This document shows, piece by piece, positions 45,040 through 61,250 of a stretch of 64,000 nt of DNA. This stretch comes from Malus domestica (lineage: Eukaryota; Streptophyta; Magnoliopsida; Rosales; Rosaceae), in the NCBI RefSeq assembly GCF_042453785.1, contig NC_091677.1, positions 34,021,001-34,085,000 of the forward strand, read 5' to 3'. Under the pieces are notes generated by a model that saw only the letters and a program-made list of their open reading frames with translations, was not told where the DNA came from and made no database searches. How positions within the stretch are numbered: position 1 is the stretch's first letter; every line of letters starts with the position of its first letter. The translations under genes and the position numbers were made by a program.

Positions 45040-45204
45040 ATCATGCTACTCAGTACTTCGGTATGGTGGTATTGCTCTTCATTTGGAAGTGAGAGGTTTT
45101 AAGTTCGAATCTTGTGGATGGCGAATTCGATACTAAATTAGACTGCTCATTGTGAGGCTTAGCCGAACTCCTCTCCTTAGTGTAAAAATATCGATATACT
45201 AAAA
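45040..45204 (+). mobile_element. tRNA-derived SINE, plus orientation
   Basis: The head carries GGTGGTATTGCTCTTCATTT followed by a perfect box B, GTTCGAATC (45103-45111). The body contains ACTAAATTAGACTGCTCATT and GGCTTAGCCGAACTCCTC, ending in an A-rich tail that has been invaded by a second SINE. The copy at about 62335-62470 is a diverged relative. Confidence 0.75.
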
Positions 45205-45350
45205 ATGTCGTACCCAGTGCACAAGGCTCCCGCTTACGCAGGGTCTGGGAGAGGTGAATGTCGGCTAGCCTTACCCCCATTTATGGAGAGGTTGCTCCCA
45301 AGTCTCGAACCCGAGACCTACCGCTCATGGGCGAAGGCACTTGCCATCGC
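45205..45350 (-). mobile_element. Au-type SINE inserted in the tail of another SINE
   Basis: On the minus strand the element has a tRNA-like head with box B GGGTTCGAGAC and ends GCCTTGTGCACTGGGTACGA, the 3' end I recall for Au SINEs, which occur widely in flowering plants. It is flanked by a perfect 15-base duplication, ATCGATATACTAAAA (45190-45204 and 45351-45365). The left duplication is the A-rich tail of the neighbouring SINE, so the insertion order is clear. Confidence 0.88.
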
Positions 45351-45365
45351 ATCGATATACTAAAA

Positions 45366-50259: not shown

Positions 50260-50516
50260 CGTAAAAAGGTCGTACCCAGTGCACAAGGCTCCCGCTTTAC
50301 ACAAGGTCTGGAAGAGGTGAATGTCGGTTAGTCTTATCCCCATTTATGGAGAGGCACTTGGTGCGATGGCAAGTGCCTTCGCCCATGAGCGGTAGGTCTC
50401 GGGTTCGAGACTTGGGAGCAGCCTCTCCATTAATGGGGGTAAAGCTAGCCGACATTCACCTCTCCCAAACCCTGCGTAAAACGGAAGCCTTGTGCACTAG
50501 GTACGACATTTTTAAT
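50260..50516. mobile_element. Head-to-head pair of Au-type SINEs with a shared 14-bp duplication
   Basis: A truncated minus-oriented copy (about 50268-50354) starts at its 3' end with GGTCGTACCCAGTGCACAAG. It abuts a full plus-oriented copy (about 50358-50510) with box B CGGGTTCGAGAC and end TTGTGCACTAGGTACGAC. The copies differ at several positions, so they are not a fresh duplication. The whole pair is bounded by identical GTTAAAAAACCAGT at 50246-50259 and 50517-50530. Short frames here are SINE translations. Confidence 0.82.
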
Positions 50517-53166: not shown

Positions 53167-53759
53167 TGTTTGGGTTAATATTTAACTCTGGGCTTAAAAG
53201 GAGAGGAAGCCCAAAAGAGTTCAATAGTGAAGATTTTGCCCGAGGCCCAGGGTTAAGTCCAAATACCCATTTCAAGACAATGTGACAGCTCCCCATTAAA
53301 TGCAAAGGGTAGGTGTTTACAAGGGAAGTGACAACTAATGGAAATCAACCAATTCCTAGCCCAAAAGCACTTTTCCGAATGGCAGAACATGTAAAAATGC
53401 TGATGACTCACTACCCTCCAGTTGCTTTTGGGCAAGAGCAGAAACAACGCAGTCGGGTTAATTCATTTATAAATTAGGGAAGAGGGCCCAGAGATAAGGG
53501 CACACAAACAATCAAACAAACAAACATACAACTTGTCTCTCAGTCAAGCAAATATCCAGAAAGCTGTGCTTTGTCCAGATTCTGCACCCCTTTTAGCCTT
53601 AGACTCCCCCTAGAAAGACATCTTTTGTCTATGTAAAAACTCTGCTACCTTCTTCGAATGTTGTAGTATCAATTTTCTTATGTAAACCTATTTACTTTTC
53701 AACCCTCTTTCAATACCTAACTCTTTAGAACTACACCAAAGAGATTACAAGGCGTTTAA
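53167..53759 (+). mobile_element. LTR fragment, same family as 24884-26531, truncated by insertion
   Basis: It starts TGTTTGGGTTAATA. It has a TTATAAATTAGGG TATA box near 53468, a CAATCAAACAAACAAACATA leader-like stretch, CTCTGCTACCTTC and GTAGTATCAATTTTC, all in the order seen in the LTR at 24.9 kb. It stops at GGCGTTTAA, where a second LTR begins. In the full-length copy this position falls within the region after AGAACTACAAAGA. So the downstream long LTR inserted into it. Confidence 0.65.
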
Positions 53760-56118
53760 TGTGAAATCCCATTCCTGGATTTCACTGTGATAATCTATGT
53801 ATTTGTATTATTGAGGTTCTATATTATTTTTCGAGAATTTATATTAATTTATTTGAAATTAGGTTTTAATTAAACTAGTTATGAGGGTAGGGTAGAAGTT
53901 TGGAAATTAATTATCTAAAATCCATAGACCTTTCGAGGTCACGGTTTATATTTTCGAATAGATCTCAAAGCCACGAGCACATAGGCGAAAGCCATTTGTG
54001 AGTCCGAATTATAACGGTATAGTTACAAACGTTTGAAGTTGTGATACTATAGATTTTATGAATTAATTATATCCCACTTTGTGGGTAAGAGGCCCAGATC
54101 GATCGATATGGGGTTAAGTGGACCATCATAATTGAAAAAAAAGGAGGGGGAAGCAACCTATCAGGTGGAAGGGAAAAAGAAAGGAAAAAGAAAAGAAAAG
54201 AGGGATTTTTCCCCTTTCCATTTGGTCAACCCGTGCACCCACAAACCCAACTTCAACCCGAATGAATTCCAGTCAATCTCCACCATTTTCAAGCCATTCT
54301 CACCCCTCAACCACCTGCAACTTATTCCACAACCTCCCATCTACCATCTCCACCCAAATTTGGTGATTTTTAAGCCCAAAAACAGTGCGGGTGATCAGAG
54401 GTGTTTGAGGGCGATTCAGCCGTTTCGGCAAGTTTTACCACCCACCACCACCCCTAATCAACTTCCCTTGGATCCAGGAATAAGACCCAATCAGTTGTAG
54501 GGGTGTTGGAACATCGAGGAAGTCGAATCGAATAACACCCATCTTAGGGTTTCCGGCGGGTTTGAGTGATTTTGGGGTTTTTCCCGGTCGAATTGAACTT
54601 CAGCCCAGATTGGATATGGATCACAAGTAGTGGAACTATTGACAAGATTGGATATGGATCACAAGCAGTGGAATTATTGACAAAATATAAGGAGTGGCTG
54701 ATGTGGACATTCTAGTGATACCTCTGGTATGTATTATGTGTTATGTGAGTGACATTGGACTACTCTTGTTGGGGATCTAGACATAAGGAATGTGTGTGAT
54801 ATGTATAATGTGTGATGATGAGATTGCACCATGTAGTAGTGGTACATGGATGGTCCTGCTTGGTATATCCGCGATGGGGGACCATACACATGCTAGGAGT
54901 GATCATGCTTGGTATATCCGCGATGGGTGATCACTACCTAGAGCTATATGATACAGTCCTACTTGGTATATTCGCGATGAGGGACTGTTATGGGTGATCA
55001 TGCTTGGTATATCCGCGATGGGTGATTACTGCCTACGGTATTAGACTATGCATATGGTTCTGCTTGGTATATCCGCGATGGGGAACCATACACATGCTAG
55101 GAGTGATCACGCTTGGTATATCCGCGATGGGTGGTCACTACCTAGAGTTAGAATGTGGTCCTGCTTGATATATCAGCGATGGGGGACCATATGTATTCAG
55201 GGGTAATCATGCTTGGTATACCGCGATGGGTGATCACTGCATGTACAGTACGATGAGATTATGCCTATGGTTCTGCTTGGTATATCTGCGATAGGGGACC
55301 ATACGCATTCTAGAGGTGATGATGATTAGGTGATGATGATTAGTTATACTTGGTACATTTGATAGCCGATCATATTTAGTTTGGTTCCGTTGAGTGGTCC
55401 GGAACCCGAGGTTGTTGAATTTCGTGGAGTAGTCTAAAATCCCATTATTTGGAGAAGTAGGCTTGGTCTAACCATGTCACTCTAACCTTAGTTTTATATA
55501 TATTTGTGTCAATGGTTTCGAGAATCTTGTGAATTGAGTTAGAAAAGATGTTGGACGTCTGAGTGACTCTTTCGGGATTTTCTATGATTCGATTATGATT
55601 TCATAAGGTATGAATTTAGAAGATATGGAAATAATTGTTATTACTTTGATCAAATTAATTAATTAATGTGGCTAGAGAATGGTTTTGTGTTTCGTCGGTT
55701 CTTAAATATGATGTATGTTGTGAATTACGATATCATGATGAGACATAATGATTTATATGTTGGATGGGATAGAAATCATGTTTTCATGGGGGTTGGTTAT
55801 GTAGCCTGAGTCCAGGAATTACATGTTGTCGGGTTATAATAAATGATTGAGGAATGCTATGCTTTTCTGCTTGAACTAAGTGGAATAAACGTCTGATTTT
55901 GTGATGAGTGAACTACGAATGGCTTGATCCTTATTGAGGGTACGTAGGCAGTCTAACGAGGAGGTTATATGCAGCCATAAAGTAAAGGAAAAATTACATT
56001 GCAATTTGATTCTCGAGTTGTGATTTGCCATATCTCGAAGATGGGGTATGTGAGATATACGAGTATTTGGTGACGTCACGTGTCGATCCTGGACGTATGT
56101 CGGGATCGGGGCGTGACA
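53760..56118 (+). mobile_element. Long LTR (2359 bp) of a Ty3/gypsy-type element
   Basis: It begins TGTGAAATCCCATTCC and ends CGGGATCGGGGCGTGACA, typical TG/CA ends for this class, followed at once by a degenerate primer-binding site. It is therefore a 5' LTR. No 3' LTR or gag-pol was found, so the element is incomplete or a coding-less derivative. A 122-codon frame at 54132-54500 (Lys-rich start, Pro-rich body) has no recognisable domain. From 54850 to 55303 it carries the array of nine hairpins. No TATA box was assigned with confidence. Confidence 0.72.
54850..55303 (+). repeat. Array of nine hairpins with constant 22-nt loop and covarying stems
   Basis: Each unit has inverted arms around a 22-base loop containing CTTGGTATATCCGCGATGG. 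Arms by unit (left/right): 1 ATGGTCC/GGACCAT (54850); 2 AGTGATCA/TGATCACT (54898); 3 ACAGTCC/GGACTGT (54953); 4 GTGATCA/TGATTAC (54994); 5 TATGGTTC/GAACCATA (55053); 6 AGTGATCA/TGGTCACT (55102); 7 AATGTGGTCC/GGACCATAT region (55153); 8 GTAATCA/TGATCAC (55203, loop 21); 9 TATGGTTC/GGACCATA (55266). Two stem classes alternate, and units 1-4 and 5-8 form a super-repeat of about 204 bases. Units 1, 3 and 5 differ by paired substitutions that keep all base pairs. Units 4, 6, 7 and 9 have a single G-T pair, which as RNA is G-U. Only unit 8 has one true mismatch. Function unknown. Confidence 0.88.
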
Positions 56119-56138
56119 ACTTTTTGTGGTACTAGAGC
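56119..56138 (+). promoter_or_regulatory. Degenerate primer-binding site after the long LTR
   Basis: The stretch reads ACTTTTTGTGGTACTAGAGC. TGGTACTAGAGC differs from the usual TGGTATCAGAGC at two adjacent positions. Its place directly after GTGACA supports the LTR end. Confidence 0.6.
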
Positions 56139-57560
56139 TTAGGTACTAGGTCCTTGTACCTTTACCTTAGTGTAGGAATGATTTTTGGGTAATGCCATTT
56201 GTAACTTTGACGGGACACTACTTAAGCGTTTGATCTTGTCAGTTTGAAGCCTTGTGTTGCTTATGTGACATTGCTCTTGGTTGGTATCGATGTGTTGAGC
56301 TCATGTATTGTGCTAATTTATTTCAAAGCATGTTGATAGTGCGTTGAATAAGTGGTTCAATTAATTTTTACTTAATCCTAGAAAATGTGATGTGAAATTC
56401 ACATGCATCATCATTACTTCAAATAGTAGTTAGAATGCCTTCATTTAAACCATGGATATGGATGATTGTGAAATGGTTGTGTTCATATGATTGAATGGGA
56501 GAATAAAAAATTTTAAAATATCATATTTCATGTTATAGCTTCAAAGATGAGTGTTTGATTAAAGTCTCGAATTAATCTTGAATTGGGTTGATATTATGTT
56601 ATGCGATATTAAAATTTTGAACGTTAAGATGATTGTGCAATTGTGATAAGTAGATAGAAATGTCGTATTATATCTGTGCAATTGAGAAATGTTGAATTGG
56701 GCGGCCAAGGCCGTGGATGTTAATTCGGGCAAAAAGGCCTGTGGAATGTGAGAAATGGATGAGTGGGCACAAAGACCCAATGTTTCTGGGGAGAAGCTCT
56801 ATGTGTGGGCTGCGAGAATAAATTATCAAAGTGATAAATATGTGTGACGTGTTTTGGCCAGGTATATTATAATCTTTTCCAAACTACTAGTCACTTATGT
56901 GGATAAAAGAAAAAGATGATGAAATTGTTGTTTCGCCAATGATGATTATGGCTAGAAATTTTCAAATATTATGGCCATGCTAATTATGGCTGAAAATTTT
57001 AATATTTATGAAAGTCATGATGATTTTATGAGCGGGAATGAAATCGCAACCCGATGCTATGATTGGTTTAATATATAATGGTGAATAATTGTGATTTGGA
57101 ATTCCAATGAATTTGGTTGGAATTTTTTATATGTGATTTACCAATTCTGATGGTTTGGCTTGAAATTCTGATATTTATTTGACCAATGAGGGTTATGGCT
57201 GGAATTTATGACATTTGTTTTGCTAATGATGAGTATGGTGAATTTTTTTTGATGTTGGTATCACCAGTGAGTGTGGCTAGAAATTTTGAGGAAGAATCGT
57301 GGTAACGGCTATGTATAGTCAATGATGGTAAGTGGTTTTACCAACGCTTGTGGTTATTATGCTAATATTTATCTAGCCAATGGTAGATGTGGTTTGATAA
57401 TTTGGTATTTATTTAGCCAATTCGGATTGCTGCTTGATGTTTGATACATATTTTGCCAATGTGTATGGCTAGAATTTCTAATATTTATTCTGCCAATAAA
57501 TGTTGCTGGGAATCTGAGTATATGGGTGAGAATCATGATGATCTATCCGTTAATTTATTT
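56139..57560. repeat. Retroelement interior with degenerate minisatellite
   Basis: After the primer-binding site there is no gag-like frame. From about 56930 to 57520 a degenerate unit of 55-75 bases repeats, with blocks such as CCAATGATGATTATGGCTAG and AAATTTT followed by ATATTTATTT. No product is recognised. From here to 58080 is AT-rich DNA with a 79-codon frame of no resemblance. Confidence 0.5.
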
Positions 57561-58087
57561 ATTTTGAGCTTGAACAAACTCGTAGACTGAGGTTATGATT
57601 TTATTTACAATAAATGGAATGATGGGGAAAGTTTGTAATTATAAATTTGGTTGGTTTGGTTGCCATAATCATGAGGGTTTAGGTGAGAAAAAAATTAGTT
57701 TATATGAAAGAGTTTTCTACACAATCATAGTTCATTGGAATTTTGTAATTTGGAGTGCTACTATTACAAAGATGTTGTTGTTGTATTTTAGAAGTCAAGC
57801 GCCGATCAACTATAAGCATTGTAATGGGGCGTAAACTTATTTTAAAAGCAGAATGTCTCACATTTGTCTCGACCAATTTTCTAATTTTTCTAATTTATTA
57901 TGTCATGTTCATTTAACATTTAGTTAATCACGTACATGCTTTAAAGTGTGTACTCATTTGCATGATAATTTATAAAAAAAAATTTAAACAAAGATAATTC
58001 AAAATTTGTATAGGTATTTAATATGGCAATTACACTTTAATTTTCCAACAGGACACTTGGCAGGAGCAAGGGTCCAAGCCATGTTGA

Positions 58088-58312
58088 GAGGATCTCGCCA
58101 TCCTCCTTGTAAGGATTCGGAGATCCTCCAATCACATCTATTCATCATACATCATGCGTTTAGTTTTTTGTTAAATACTGTTTATATTCAATTTTAAATT
58201 AAAAAATTTACAATGATTCCTGACCGCATGATGTACAATAAACAAATGTGATTTGAGGATTTTTAATACCCTCACAAAAATGATCCGATGATAATCTTCC
58301 TGGAAAAGATGC
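58088..58312. mobile_element. MITE-like long imperfect inverted repeat
   Basis: The left arm has GAGATCCTCCAATCACATCT and ATCATACATCATGCG. The right arm, reverse-complemented, has AATCCTCAAATCACATTTG, TTATTGTACATCATGCG. The arms face each other across a short AT-rich centre (58160-58220). The outer ends are not exact and no target duplication was fixed. Confidence 0.55.
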
Positions 58313-59105
58313 AGTTGGAACAGGATTAGTATAACTGGGCTTTCTGTGAGGGACATGTTTATAGAGTCGAAGTTGTCAGGGCCTAAATGCGGTTTTGAAG
58401 TGCGGTCCCTTGGTATTTATTTCCGAGTTGGGTACCGAGTCTAGCCATCGCATTTTTTATTTGCCACAAAGCCCATCACATTTTCAAAGTTTCAAAAAAT
58501 GTAACAAATTGTACAAAAGTAATTGTTTTTACCTCATTTGAACTATAAGCCTCTTGCAAATGTAGCAAAATCATATAAAAATGTTGTAGTATGAATTTAG
58601 AGAGGGAAGAGAGAGGGAGATCGGCAGAGAGAAGAGAGAAAGAGAGAAGGACTGGAGGAATTTTGTGTTGATATTCCTTATATCTTATGCTTTTATTTAT
58701 AGTAAACATGATGGACTTTACATGTCGTACAAATAATACAGAGTACAATAGGAAATATTTAGAAGATCTCATAGAATTTTTGTATACAATCTACTAAAAT
58801 TTACAAAATCACATTCTTAATTAAATATTAACTGCAACAAAAACATAATTTTAAAAGAATCTATATCCAATCCATGGTCCAGAATATTGGAGAATCAGTA
58901 ATTTACATACTTTTATAATTAGTTGTCAAGTTTCATTCTCAAAAAAGTACAACAAACAATTATGAAGCTTTTCTCTCTAATAATCTTTCCATGTGTTTTT
59001 TTTTAATACAAATGACATTCTACACTAATATATATTAAGAAGAAAAGGGGGAAGGTTTAAATTTTAGAAGAGAAAGGTACTAACCATCAAGTGTTGCTCA
59101 GAATT

Positions 59106-59304
59106 GGGAAAGGATCCTCTTCGGATCATTTCCACCAAGTCCACCAAGGCACACAATTCAGACTTTTGAAATTTGATCAAATAACTAAAATTATTATAAT
59201 TTTTAAAGTGTGTCCCTGTTTGTAGTCATTAGATCAAGTTTCAAAAGTCCGAATTATATGTTTTGGTTGACTTGGTGGAAAGAATCCGAAGAGGATACTT
59301 TCCC
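59106..59304. mobile_element. MITE (199 bp), long TIRs and 8-bp TSD TCAGAATT
   Basis: The left end GGGAAAGGATCCTCTTCGGA and the right end in reverse complement GGGAAAGTATCCTCTTCGGA differ at one base. The inverted arms continue for about 65 bases (CCACCAAGTC, then AATTCAGACTTTTGAAA on the left). Flanks are identical TCAGAATT (59098-59105 and 59305-59312). An 8-base duplication suggests a hAT-type origin, although Mutator-like MITEs (9 bases) can look alike. It is non-coding. Confidence 0.9.
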
Positions 59305-59312
59305 TCAGAATT

Positions 59313-60372
59313 AGTGGTGATGTGATGGAGGAACCATTGAATTGTCAAAACATTGCAAATCGAGATCTACATGTTAACTAACTCTCTTTTTTTCTTCATA
59401 CAATTAATAAACCCTTAAAAACCTAATACTTAAAATACCTAAAATATTATCATTTTTCAATAAGTTTTTGTTCTATGTTCTCATTTCATCGGCACAAGAC
59501 ACAATGTGAAGATGTAAGGTATACATGGCATGGAAGTTATTCCACATAAGTTAGTCTCTATTATATACAAGGATGTGATATTCACACACCCTATTTTACT
59601 TCTCACACATCTTTTTAATTTTTGCAAGAGGTCCAATATTTCTTGGCTGAGATGTTAAATGCCAGTTATGAATTTAGAAATATTCAAGGGAGACAGAACT
59701 TGAGGTCCAATAACATTAACAAACGTTAGTTGTGTGTGCATAACGCTAACAACCGTTAATATCTAATAATTAATGAATTTGTTTTTGTTAATAAAAAAAA
59801 AGGATGAAAGGACAATTTAATTTTCTATAATACAAAAAAAATAATGGGCAATAATGTAATTTCATAGATCTAAATTTTATTGTATGATGTTAAAATATCT
59901 TTAATATTTAAAATTAAAAAAAATTAAAAAACAAAAACTTCCTACTCTCCCCCATGTTCTCTCTCTCCCCCTCTCTCCTTCTCATTAAAAAAAAACATAT
60001 GTTCATACACAAAAAGTGTGTAGGCAAATGCTAGTGATGAATAAATATCTTATACATACGAGTAATGCTAAAAAAAATCAAATTTAAAAATAAAATAATA
60101 TGATTATAAATGATTGAATTATTAATTAAATATCGATCAACATATTTATTTCTTATTAATAACGTATTATTTGATTTAAATATTTAATCTTCGTAGAATT
60201 ATCCCTTATATATATATATATATGCCTTCCTTCCCTGTTCCCAGACGCAGATTGCGATGGTCAAAATCATCCTTATTTAATAAATACATTAGGGTCAAAA
60301 AATAAAAAATGAGGGTCCAGTTGTAAATATCAGATCATCTGTCAGTCCGAAACGCAAGCCGGGGGTTTGGGA
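59313..60372. other. Intergenic, no gene recognised
   Basis: AT-rich DNA with a TCTCTC tract near 59960 and a TA run at 60211-60222. No frames with family resemblance. Confidence 0.5.
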
Positions 60373-60483
60373 CGTCAGCTGACATGCGTCACGCCATACG
60401 CAAAATCCACCCAACTAATTAAAAAAGTAGCAACTGGTAGTACTAGAACAGAATAAAGTCACGCTCCATTCCCGGTGACGTCA
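60373..60483 (+). promoter_or_regulatory. as-1-like TGACG cluster upstream of the NIMIN gene
   Basis: Two TGACG motifs on the minus strand (CGTCA at 60373-60377 and 60387-60391) are spaced 14 bases start to start, near the 12 of the classical as-1 element. A palindromic TGACGTCA lies at 60476-60483. These are binding motifs for TGA bZIP factors, the DNA-bound partners of NPR1. The cluster is 170-280 bases upstream of a TATA box (60654-60660). Confidence 0.65.
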
Positions 60484-60653
60484 TATGTTCTTTGCAGCTG
60501 GATTTTACCATTATCTCCATCCAGTTAGGGTACAAATATGAAATATGGAGTTCTCTGCAAGGGCCGGTGGGGGTGATTTCGTCTTTCTGTCCTTATGCCA
60601 AATCGGACAGTGGGCCGGGCTCCTTCTTAATTGATCACAGGATTCACGGTGCA

Positions 60654-60660
60654 TATATAA
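60654..60660 (+). promoter_or_regulatory. TATA box of the NIMIN gene
   Basis: TATATAA at 60654-60660. Transcription would start at about 60685-60695, which argues that the ATG at 60492 is not used and decides the translation start in favour of 60687 or later. Confidence 0.6.
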
Positions 60661-60686
60661 TGATGATGGTTTTTGGTGACCTCAAT

Positions 60687-61250
60687 ATGACTACGTCACC
60701 ATGCATGTATAACTCTATAAGAAGTCTAAGATTAGAGAGCAGCACGGTACCCCAACAGTTGCCAACCATGGAAAATAAGAAGAAGATTGAAGACGTTGAC
60801 CAGGTGTGCTGGAAACATCAGGATGATGATGGACTCAAAGAAGAAGAAGAAGAGAGCGAGGAGATGAAGATGGAGAAGTTTTATTCGTTGATTCGGAGCT
60901 ACCACGAAGCTCGTAATCGTCTAAGATTAAGGAACGCAACACGGCCGCCGCCGCCGCCACCACAAGTTCATAGTGATGATCATGAAGTATTGTCGGTCAA
61001 CAAGGTCAACAGCAACAAGAGAAGAAAGAAAATGGGTGGTGATGATGATGATGCAGGAGGAGGAGGAGGTGGAGGGAAAATTTGGGTGCCAAGTTTTGAG
61101 GTGGGGGATTTTGCCAACGAGGTGGAGTTTCGACGTTCTCTCTATTCTTGTAATAATATTATTACTAGTACAGGAAGTACTGCTAGTTCTGCAGAACAAA
61201 AACAAGATGATGGAAAGAACGAGTTCCTGGACTTGAGGCTCACCCTATAG
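60687..61250 (+). CDS. NIM1/NPR1-interacting (NIMIN-type) protein
   Basis: A single exon of 187 codons from this ATG. The frame is open back to 60492, but the TATA box at 60654 makes that start unlikely. ATGs at 60705 and 60768 (160 residues, MENKKKIEDVDQV) are alternatives, the last having a good ACCATGG context. Counted from 60768: an acidic stretch (LKEEEEESEE), then MEKFYSLIRSYHEARNRL at 35-52, like the amphipathic NPR1-binding segment of NIMINs; Pro6 and Lys/Arg-rich NKRRKK, a possible nuclear signal; a Gly7 run; IWVPSFEVGDFANEVEF; and a C-terminal LDLRLTL, an EAR repression motif. NIMINs are small nuclear proteins that bind NPR1 and damp salicylic-acid-induced PR gene expression. Low complexity makes the domain call rest on three short motifs. 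Confidence 0.78.
   Translation: MTTSPCMYNSIRSLRLESSTVPQQLPTMENKKKIEDVDQVCWKHQDDDGLKEEEEESEEMKMEKFYSLIRSYHEARNRLRLRNATRPPPPPPQVHSDDHEVLSVNKVNSNKRRKKMGGDDDDAGGGGGGGKIWVPSFEVGDFANEVEFRRSLYSCNNIITSTGSTASSAEQKQDDGKNEFLDLRLTL

Follow-up and report, generated by a model that had tools for sequence, protein, structure and literature searches.

The hairpin array and its putative long terminal repeat

The window analysed here, a 64-kb stretch of DNA, holds a putative long terminal repeat (LTR) in whose presumed U3 nine short hairpins follow one another around a common loop. The array was delimited from the sequence and a covariance model, and the features on which the following account rests are these.

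53760..56118, + strand: putative long terminal repeat, TGTGAAATCC...GGCGTGACA, 2359 bp, with TG...CA ends and a presumed 5' end
54850..55302, + strand: hairpin array of nine units, presumed U3
54850..54885, + strand: unit 1, type A (ATGGTCC/GGACCAT)
54899..54934, + strand: unit 2, type B (GTGATCA/TGATCAC)
54953..54988, + strand: unit 3, type A with two further paired changes (ACAGTCC/GGACTGT)
54994..55029, + strand: unit 4, type B, one G-U
55054..55089, + strand: unit 5, type A, one paired change
55103..55138, + strand: unit 6, type B, one G-U
55155..55190, + strand: unit 7, type A, one G-U
55203..55237, + strand: unit 8, type B, 21-nt loop, one A-C mismatch
55267..55302, + strand: unit 9, type A, one G-U
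55340..55369, + strand: possible decayed tenth unit (weak; 11.6 bits, E 1.3), whose place fits the A/B alternation
55495..55503, + strand: TATA-box-like TATATATAT, the sole TATAWAW site in the LTR
55838..55889, + strand: two AATAAA motifs (55838, 55884)
56127..56138, + strand: primer-binding-site-like TGGTACTAGAGC

The borders of the LTR are drawn from its TG...CA ends, with TGTGAAATCC at 53760 as the presumed 5' end and GGCGTGACA ending at 56118. Between them the TATA-like site precedes the AATAAA motifs, which is the order expected of an LTR, and the TGGTACTAGAGC at 56127 agrees at 10 of 12 positions with the plant initiator-Met primer-binding site. Plant Pseudoviridae are described in PMC3601003 as having no conserved polyadenylation signal. 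The array ends 192 bp upstream of the TATA-like site and, because this is the only such site in the LTR, it is probably located in U3, with a U3/R border that is a guess.

No second LTR copy was found within the 64-kb window, and gag-pol was not seen among the 24 open frames of 56118-60400 (at least 40 aa on the + strand and at least 60 aa on the - strand), the longest of which has 104 aa. Pfam searches with 18 of these 24 frames gave no retroelement domain, and the same 18 frames together with two frames of the LTR gave only two matches, both below the cut-offs. The copy is thus incomplete or non-autonomous; it may be truncated, decayed or extend beyond the window end. A search of Rfam with 53700-58000 returned one match, below the gathering score and outside the array. 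The G+C content of 36.7% and an NPR1-interacting (NIMIN-type) gene at 60492-61250 on the + strand (Pfam PF15699, E 7.9e-18) mark the window as plant DNA by content.

Each unit consists of 7-bp arms that enclose a loop of 22 nt in eight of the nine units, unit 8 (55203-55237) being one loop base short at 21 nt, and the commonest form of the loop is TGCTTGGTATATCCGCGATGGG. The pattern CTTGGTATATCCGCGATGG, with at most three mismatches, matched eight units, compared with a mean of 0.00 in 100 shuffles. A covariance model trained on the same nine units that it recovers scored them at 52.7-63.3 bits, with the next best match in the whole window at 12.5 bits; the candidate tenth unit scores no higher than matches elsewhere. 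Successive units are spaced by 49, 54, 41, 60, 49, 52, 48 and 64 nt over a total array length of 453 bp. In all nine units G29 stands opposite position 8, which is C in unit 6 and T in the others, so that a U-G or C-G pair can lengthen the stem. Two other duplications lie nearby, a perfect 14-nt tandem duplication at 55314-55343 that adjoins the possible tenth unit, and a 38-nt tandem duplication at 54607-54683, within the LTR and upstream of the array.

Pairing and covariation of the arms

The stems fall into two types that alternate along the array, type A in units 1, 3, 5, 7 and 9 and type B in units 2, 4, 6 and 8, with two-sided differences between the types at pairs 1, 4 and 7. Counted over all units, the arm cells comprise 58 Watson-Crick pairs, four G-U pairs (units 4, 6, 7 and 9), one A-C mismatch (unit 8) and no other combination, so that 62 of 63 cells are paired while six of the seven pairs show two-sided change. 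An earlier note on this DNA, made from the sequence alone, had described nine hairpins with a common 22-nt loop and stems that differ while pairing is kept, with two paired substitutions between units 1 and 3, one between units 1 and 5, G-U pairs in units 4, 6, 7 and 9 and a single mismatched unit; our counts reproduce each of these observations, and the A/B alternation with its three further two-sided differences is an addition to them.

Pairing of this extent is above chance. The cells are paired at 98.4%, compared with a mean of 81.6% in column shuffles (none of 500 as high), and shifting the 3' partners by one to three columns lowers pairing to 18-60%. The covariation score behaves in the same way, at 0.734 against 0.388 in shuffles (again none of 500 as high) and 0.06-0.15 in slid structures; further pair types are no more numerous than expected (10 against 9.5, with 234 of 500 shuffles as high). 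On one parsimony tree out of 45 of equal length, with the two types constrained to stay separate, the arms carry 15 changes at 14 sites and the loop 8 at 22 (P=0.0095), which means that the arms change per site at about three times the rate of the loop and still keep their pairing. Neutral simulations on the same tree, started from the arms of unit 1 and run under three transition settings, reached 62 paired cells at a frequency of 0.00005 to 0.0066, depending on the transition share, and six double-changed pairs at a frequency of at most 0.000005, and met both measures together in none of 200,000 runs at each of the three settings, under a model of stepwise change and not of whole-arm replacement.

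The true matching of arms is better than permutation among all units (P=0.0012), and within types the same permutation is not significant (P=0.13). The covariation signal is mostly the A/B contrast, with unit 3 in addition, and the independent events are few, namely the A/B split (possibly one event), unit 3 and unit 5. The principle that random decay would strike the two arms independently, from which the earlier note had argued, is right, but it applies here to only these few events. The loop is 0.91 identical between A and B whereas the outer flanks are unlike (0.15-0.23), so the B arms may be a replacement instead of stepwise descendants of the A arms. In unit 3 the adjacent change from TG/CA to CA/TG could be produced by CpG decay in each arm. 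Pairing of the flanks continues the stem in some units, for instance as CTAGG/CCTAG around units 2 and 6, and is marginal overall, with P=0.0066 for 10-nt flanks, 0.04-0.22 for 6, 8 and 12 nt, and 0.05-0.63 within types. The array also has a dimeric higher-order repeat, units 1-2 matching units 5-6 at 95% identity over 97 nt.

Related copies and known palindromic arrays

The translated array stretch matched two short predicted proteins, and an alignment with both then found ten, at E values from 3e-36 to 0.034. These ten proteins read like translations of the same array, and this resemblance indicates that the array is a feature of its family, present in other copies through what their protein translations reveal. 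Among them, P0006 (E 2.8e-6) is a hypothetical protein of Malus domestica whose 99 aa run through four loops and appear by eye to be colinear with units 6-9 and the sequence that follows. In 28 hand-placed units from the ten proteins, the codons force pairing in 90 of 196 arm cells, permit it in 101 and exclude it in 5; with a register placed by hand and with A and B stems that encode the same 3'-arm residues, to which the codons are blind, this count is a weak test of pairing and a fair test of family membership. In the hand placement the codons of P0001 force the C-G pair of unit 3, so that this change is probably older than the present insertion and was probably inherited through transposition. 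P0002 and P0005 have a third stem in common, in which the outer pair is certainly T-A and pair 4 certainly mismatched.

Searches farther afield returned scattered single occurrences. The exact loop 19-mer had one match in IMG/VR, which we take to be chance, as it lies inside an open frame of a phage-like contig that has no tandem repeats; a looser loop pattern gave nine matches there, the exact one included. Prokaryote genomes gave no match to the exact loop and six to the looser pattern. The 15 prokaryote and viral contigs with the loosened loop, which amount to nine distinct sequences (six loci are identical, as are another two), contain one occurrence each, with one to six of the seven arm positions paired and none with all seven. 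Plasmids gave no match to 53700-57900, relatives of P0001 in viral contigs yielded 11 stretches that fit a pattern, none of them confirmed, and a second array query found no homologue. The letters of the motif turned up in one paper of the literature, once, as a reverse-complement fragment, and no description of this array was recognised among titles and abstract openings.

The nearest known design is that of the Sireviruses. Bousios and colleagues (PMC2829016) reported 8-32 palindromic boxes in each of 13 elements, 3-14 of them in the 3' LTR; 117 of 127 LTR copies lie in the upper half of the LTR, spread over 300-500 bp, a figure legend places the boxes upstream of the TATA box, and a role in transcription control is raised there as an untested possibility. 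Like the nine units in 453 bp described here, these boxes are palindromes clustered in an LTR upstream of a TATA box; they differ in having conserved arms with a short spacer or none and a CGG-CCG core in 12 of 13 elements, whereas in the present array the 22-nt spacer is the conserved part, the arms are variable and none of them carries CGG-CCG. The statement of the earlier note that no element of this kind had been described is thus too strong in view of the Sirevirus clusters (PMC2829016), even though their arms are the conserved portion. Later work, as cited in PMC10760457 and PMC5311732, describes palindrome regions of Sirevirus-type LTRs as small-RNA hotspots; such clusters resemble the present array in lying in an LTR regulatory region with predicted structure, and differ from it in motif and design. 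The array matches the known palindromic LTR cis-regions in place and number, with the design inverted to a conserved centre between variable arms. The comparison with Sireviruses is one of array design alone, and no coding remnant was found in the window copy. For the U3 repeats of Tnt1 or of retroviruses, no stem covariation about a fixed loop is known to us. The tandem-repeat enhancers of Tnt1 and retroviral U3 regions (PMC3601003) share with our array the placing of repeats in U3 before the TATA box.

A proposed sense-RNA structure and competing readings

Folding of 54840-55310 separates the strands, with a z of -4.2 against shuffles on the + strand and -1.5 on the - strand. When the pairing span is limited to 60, eight of the nine units form their hairpin on the + strand with a probability of 0.83-1.0 (mean 0.87), compared with a mean of 0.68 on the - strand; at a span of 200 the means are 0.58 and 0.43. 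At a span of 800 the order is reversed (0.49 on the + strand, 0.63 on the - strand) and units 4, 5, 7 and 8 hardly fold into their own hairpins on the + strand, a reversal that is probably due to cross-pairing among units of the same type. The four G-U pairs against one A-C lean to the + strand as well, in counts too small to test. Together, these results suggest that the array may function as sense RNA. Kissing of the loops through their CGCG was considered and judged weak by inspection. Strong folding on both strands was also seen at the 3' end of the LTR (56000-56119; z -6.2 and -3.9, 120-nt window, 40 mononucleotide shuffles).

Structural selection on the sense RNA is the reading that we tentatively place first, with template switching between the arms as its serious rival. 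Under this reading the array would be a module that acts in cis from the U3 of a plant LTR retrotransposon and displays nine, perhaps ten, copies of a 22-nt sequence, each in the loop of its own short hairpin. The loop would be kept by sequence and the stem by pairing, the stem having been rebuilt with at least two arm sequences and, in relatives, probably three. The level at which it works would most likely be the element's sense RNA, since U3 would form the 3' end of the genomic transcript, where the multiple loops could be recognised by Gag, or by an RNA-binding protein of the host, for packaging, export or stability. This reading is favoured by the pairing of 62 of 63 cells with two-sided change at six of seven pairs, by arms that change faster than the loop and stay paired, by the better folding of the + strand, and less so of the - strand, relative to shuffles, by the 4:1 ratio of G-U to A-C and the span-60 + strand hairpins of at least 0.83 in eight of nine units, and by relatives that keep the design (90 cells that must pair, 101 that may, 5 that cannot). 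It is weakened by the within-type matching (P=0.13) and an A/B contrast that maybe reflects few events, by the unexceptional number of further pair types, the span-800 strand reversal and the marginal outer flanks, and by a 4:1 ratio drawn from too few cells, a codon test placed by hand and the lack of an Rfam match at the gathering score. That the array is a new kind of retrotransposon cis-acting RNA element, a multivalent array whose interchangeable stems, located at the genomic RNA's 3' end, display an invariant 22-nt loop to an RNA-binding protein of the element or the host, appears rather doubtful to us.

Selection on structure and template switching were the two options named in the earlier note, and they are the right pair, neither of which is favoured decisively. 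Monttinen and Loytynoja (PMC8794818) described patterns consistent with template switching that repairs stems, a mutational process and not an element, which could explain paired changes of several bases; the accompanying loop inversions are extremely rare, so that the lack of inverted loops here makes no case against it. Template switching in replication or reverse transcription enters the somewhat unlikely alternative that the array acts as DNA, as a promoter or enhancer array whose 22-nt core is a transcription-factor site, in the way put forward for other plant U3 repeats, and whose paired arms are a by-product. An array that ends 192 bp before the sole TATA-like site would suit such a role, as do the palindromic LTR motifs of 13 Sireviruses drawn upstream of the TATA box (PMC2829016) and the possible transcription role of U3 tandem repeats, those of Tnt1 included (PMC3601003); patterns in RNA-gene histories that agree with stem pairing being fixed by template switching (PMC8794818) speak for the by-product, and pair 7 passes from C-G in A to A-T in B without a wobble intermediate, which suits a one-step copy. 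However, a site in duplex DNA would not require matched arms, and the U-G at positions 8/29 has stayed uncorrected in eight of nine units; that none of the nine loops is inverted has little weight, loop inversion being extremely rare anyway (PMC8794818).

A history with no function at all, in which a quasi-palindrome was amplified by unequal exchange and its arms homogenised by template switching, is in our estimate distinctly unlikely. The dimeric higher-order repeat of units 1-2 and 5-6 (95% over 97 nt), the small number of independent events, the decay visible in the window copy and its relatives (5 of 196 cells impossible to pair) and the adjacent paired changes of unit 3, which CpG decay in both arms could yield, would all fit it; against it stand a loop that is kept among units with unrelated outer flanks (0.91 against 0.15-0.23) and that recurs in other contigs and in apple. 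Very improbable, and disfavoured, is a coding origin of the pattern, in which the repeats would encode a peptide (MVLLGISAMGDH / VIMLGISAMGDH) under codon constraint. The three A/B differences of the 3' arm all fall, by eye, at third codon positions in the LGISAMGDH frame over 54850-54934, which by position alone has a chance of 1 in 35 and is probably coincidence, and the predicted protein P0006 of Malus domestica, 99 aa long, spans four loops. Uneven unit spacings shift the frame, though, and stops lie inside each forward frame; by eye, P0002, P0005 and P0010 change frame between units and several unit changes are non-synonymous, and the database matches were selected by frame and hence prove nothing about coding.

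If pairing is selected, as in the sense-RNA reading, the U3 of plant LTR retrotransposons, usually discussed in terms of DNA enhancers and small-RNA hotspots, would contain a multivalent RNA signal. If the arms instead stay paired through template switching, the family, with its many units in each copy, would be a natural test bed for separating compensatory selection from template-switch repair, a live question wherever covariation is taken to prove RNA structure.

The window also contains other repeats at a distance from the array. Two inverted repeats, at 50262-50514 (arms of 94 nt with 65 nt between them) and 59106-59304 (arms of 85 nt with 29 nt between them), are perhaps miniature transposons, and the former is also 91-95% similar to 45200-45351. 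At 758-2321 lie tandem arrays rich in AAAGCTTCA units, inside which an inverted motif can be made out by eye.
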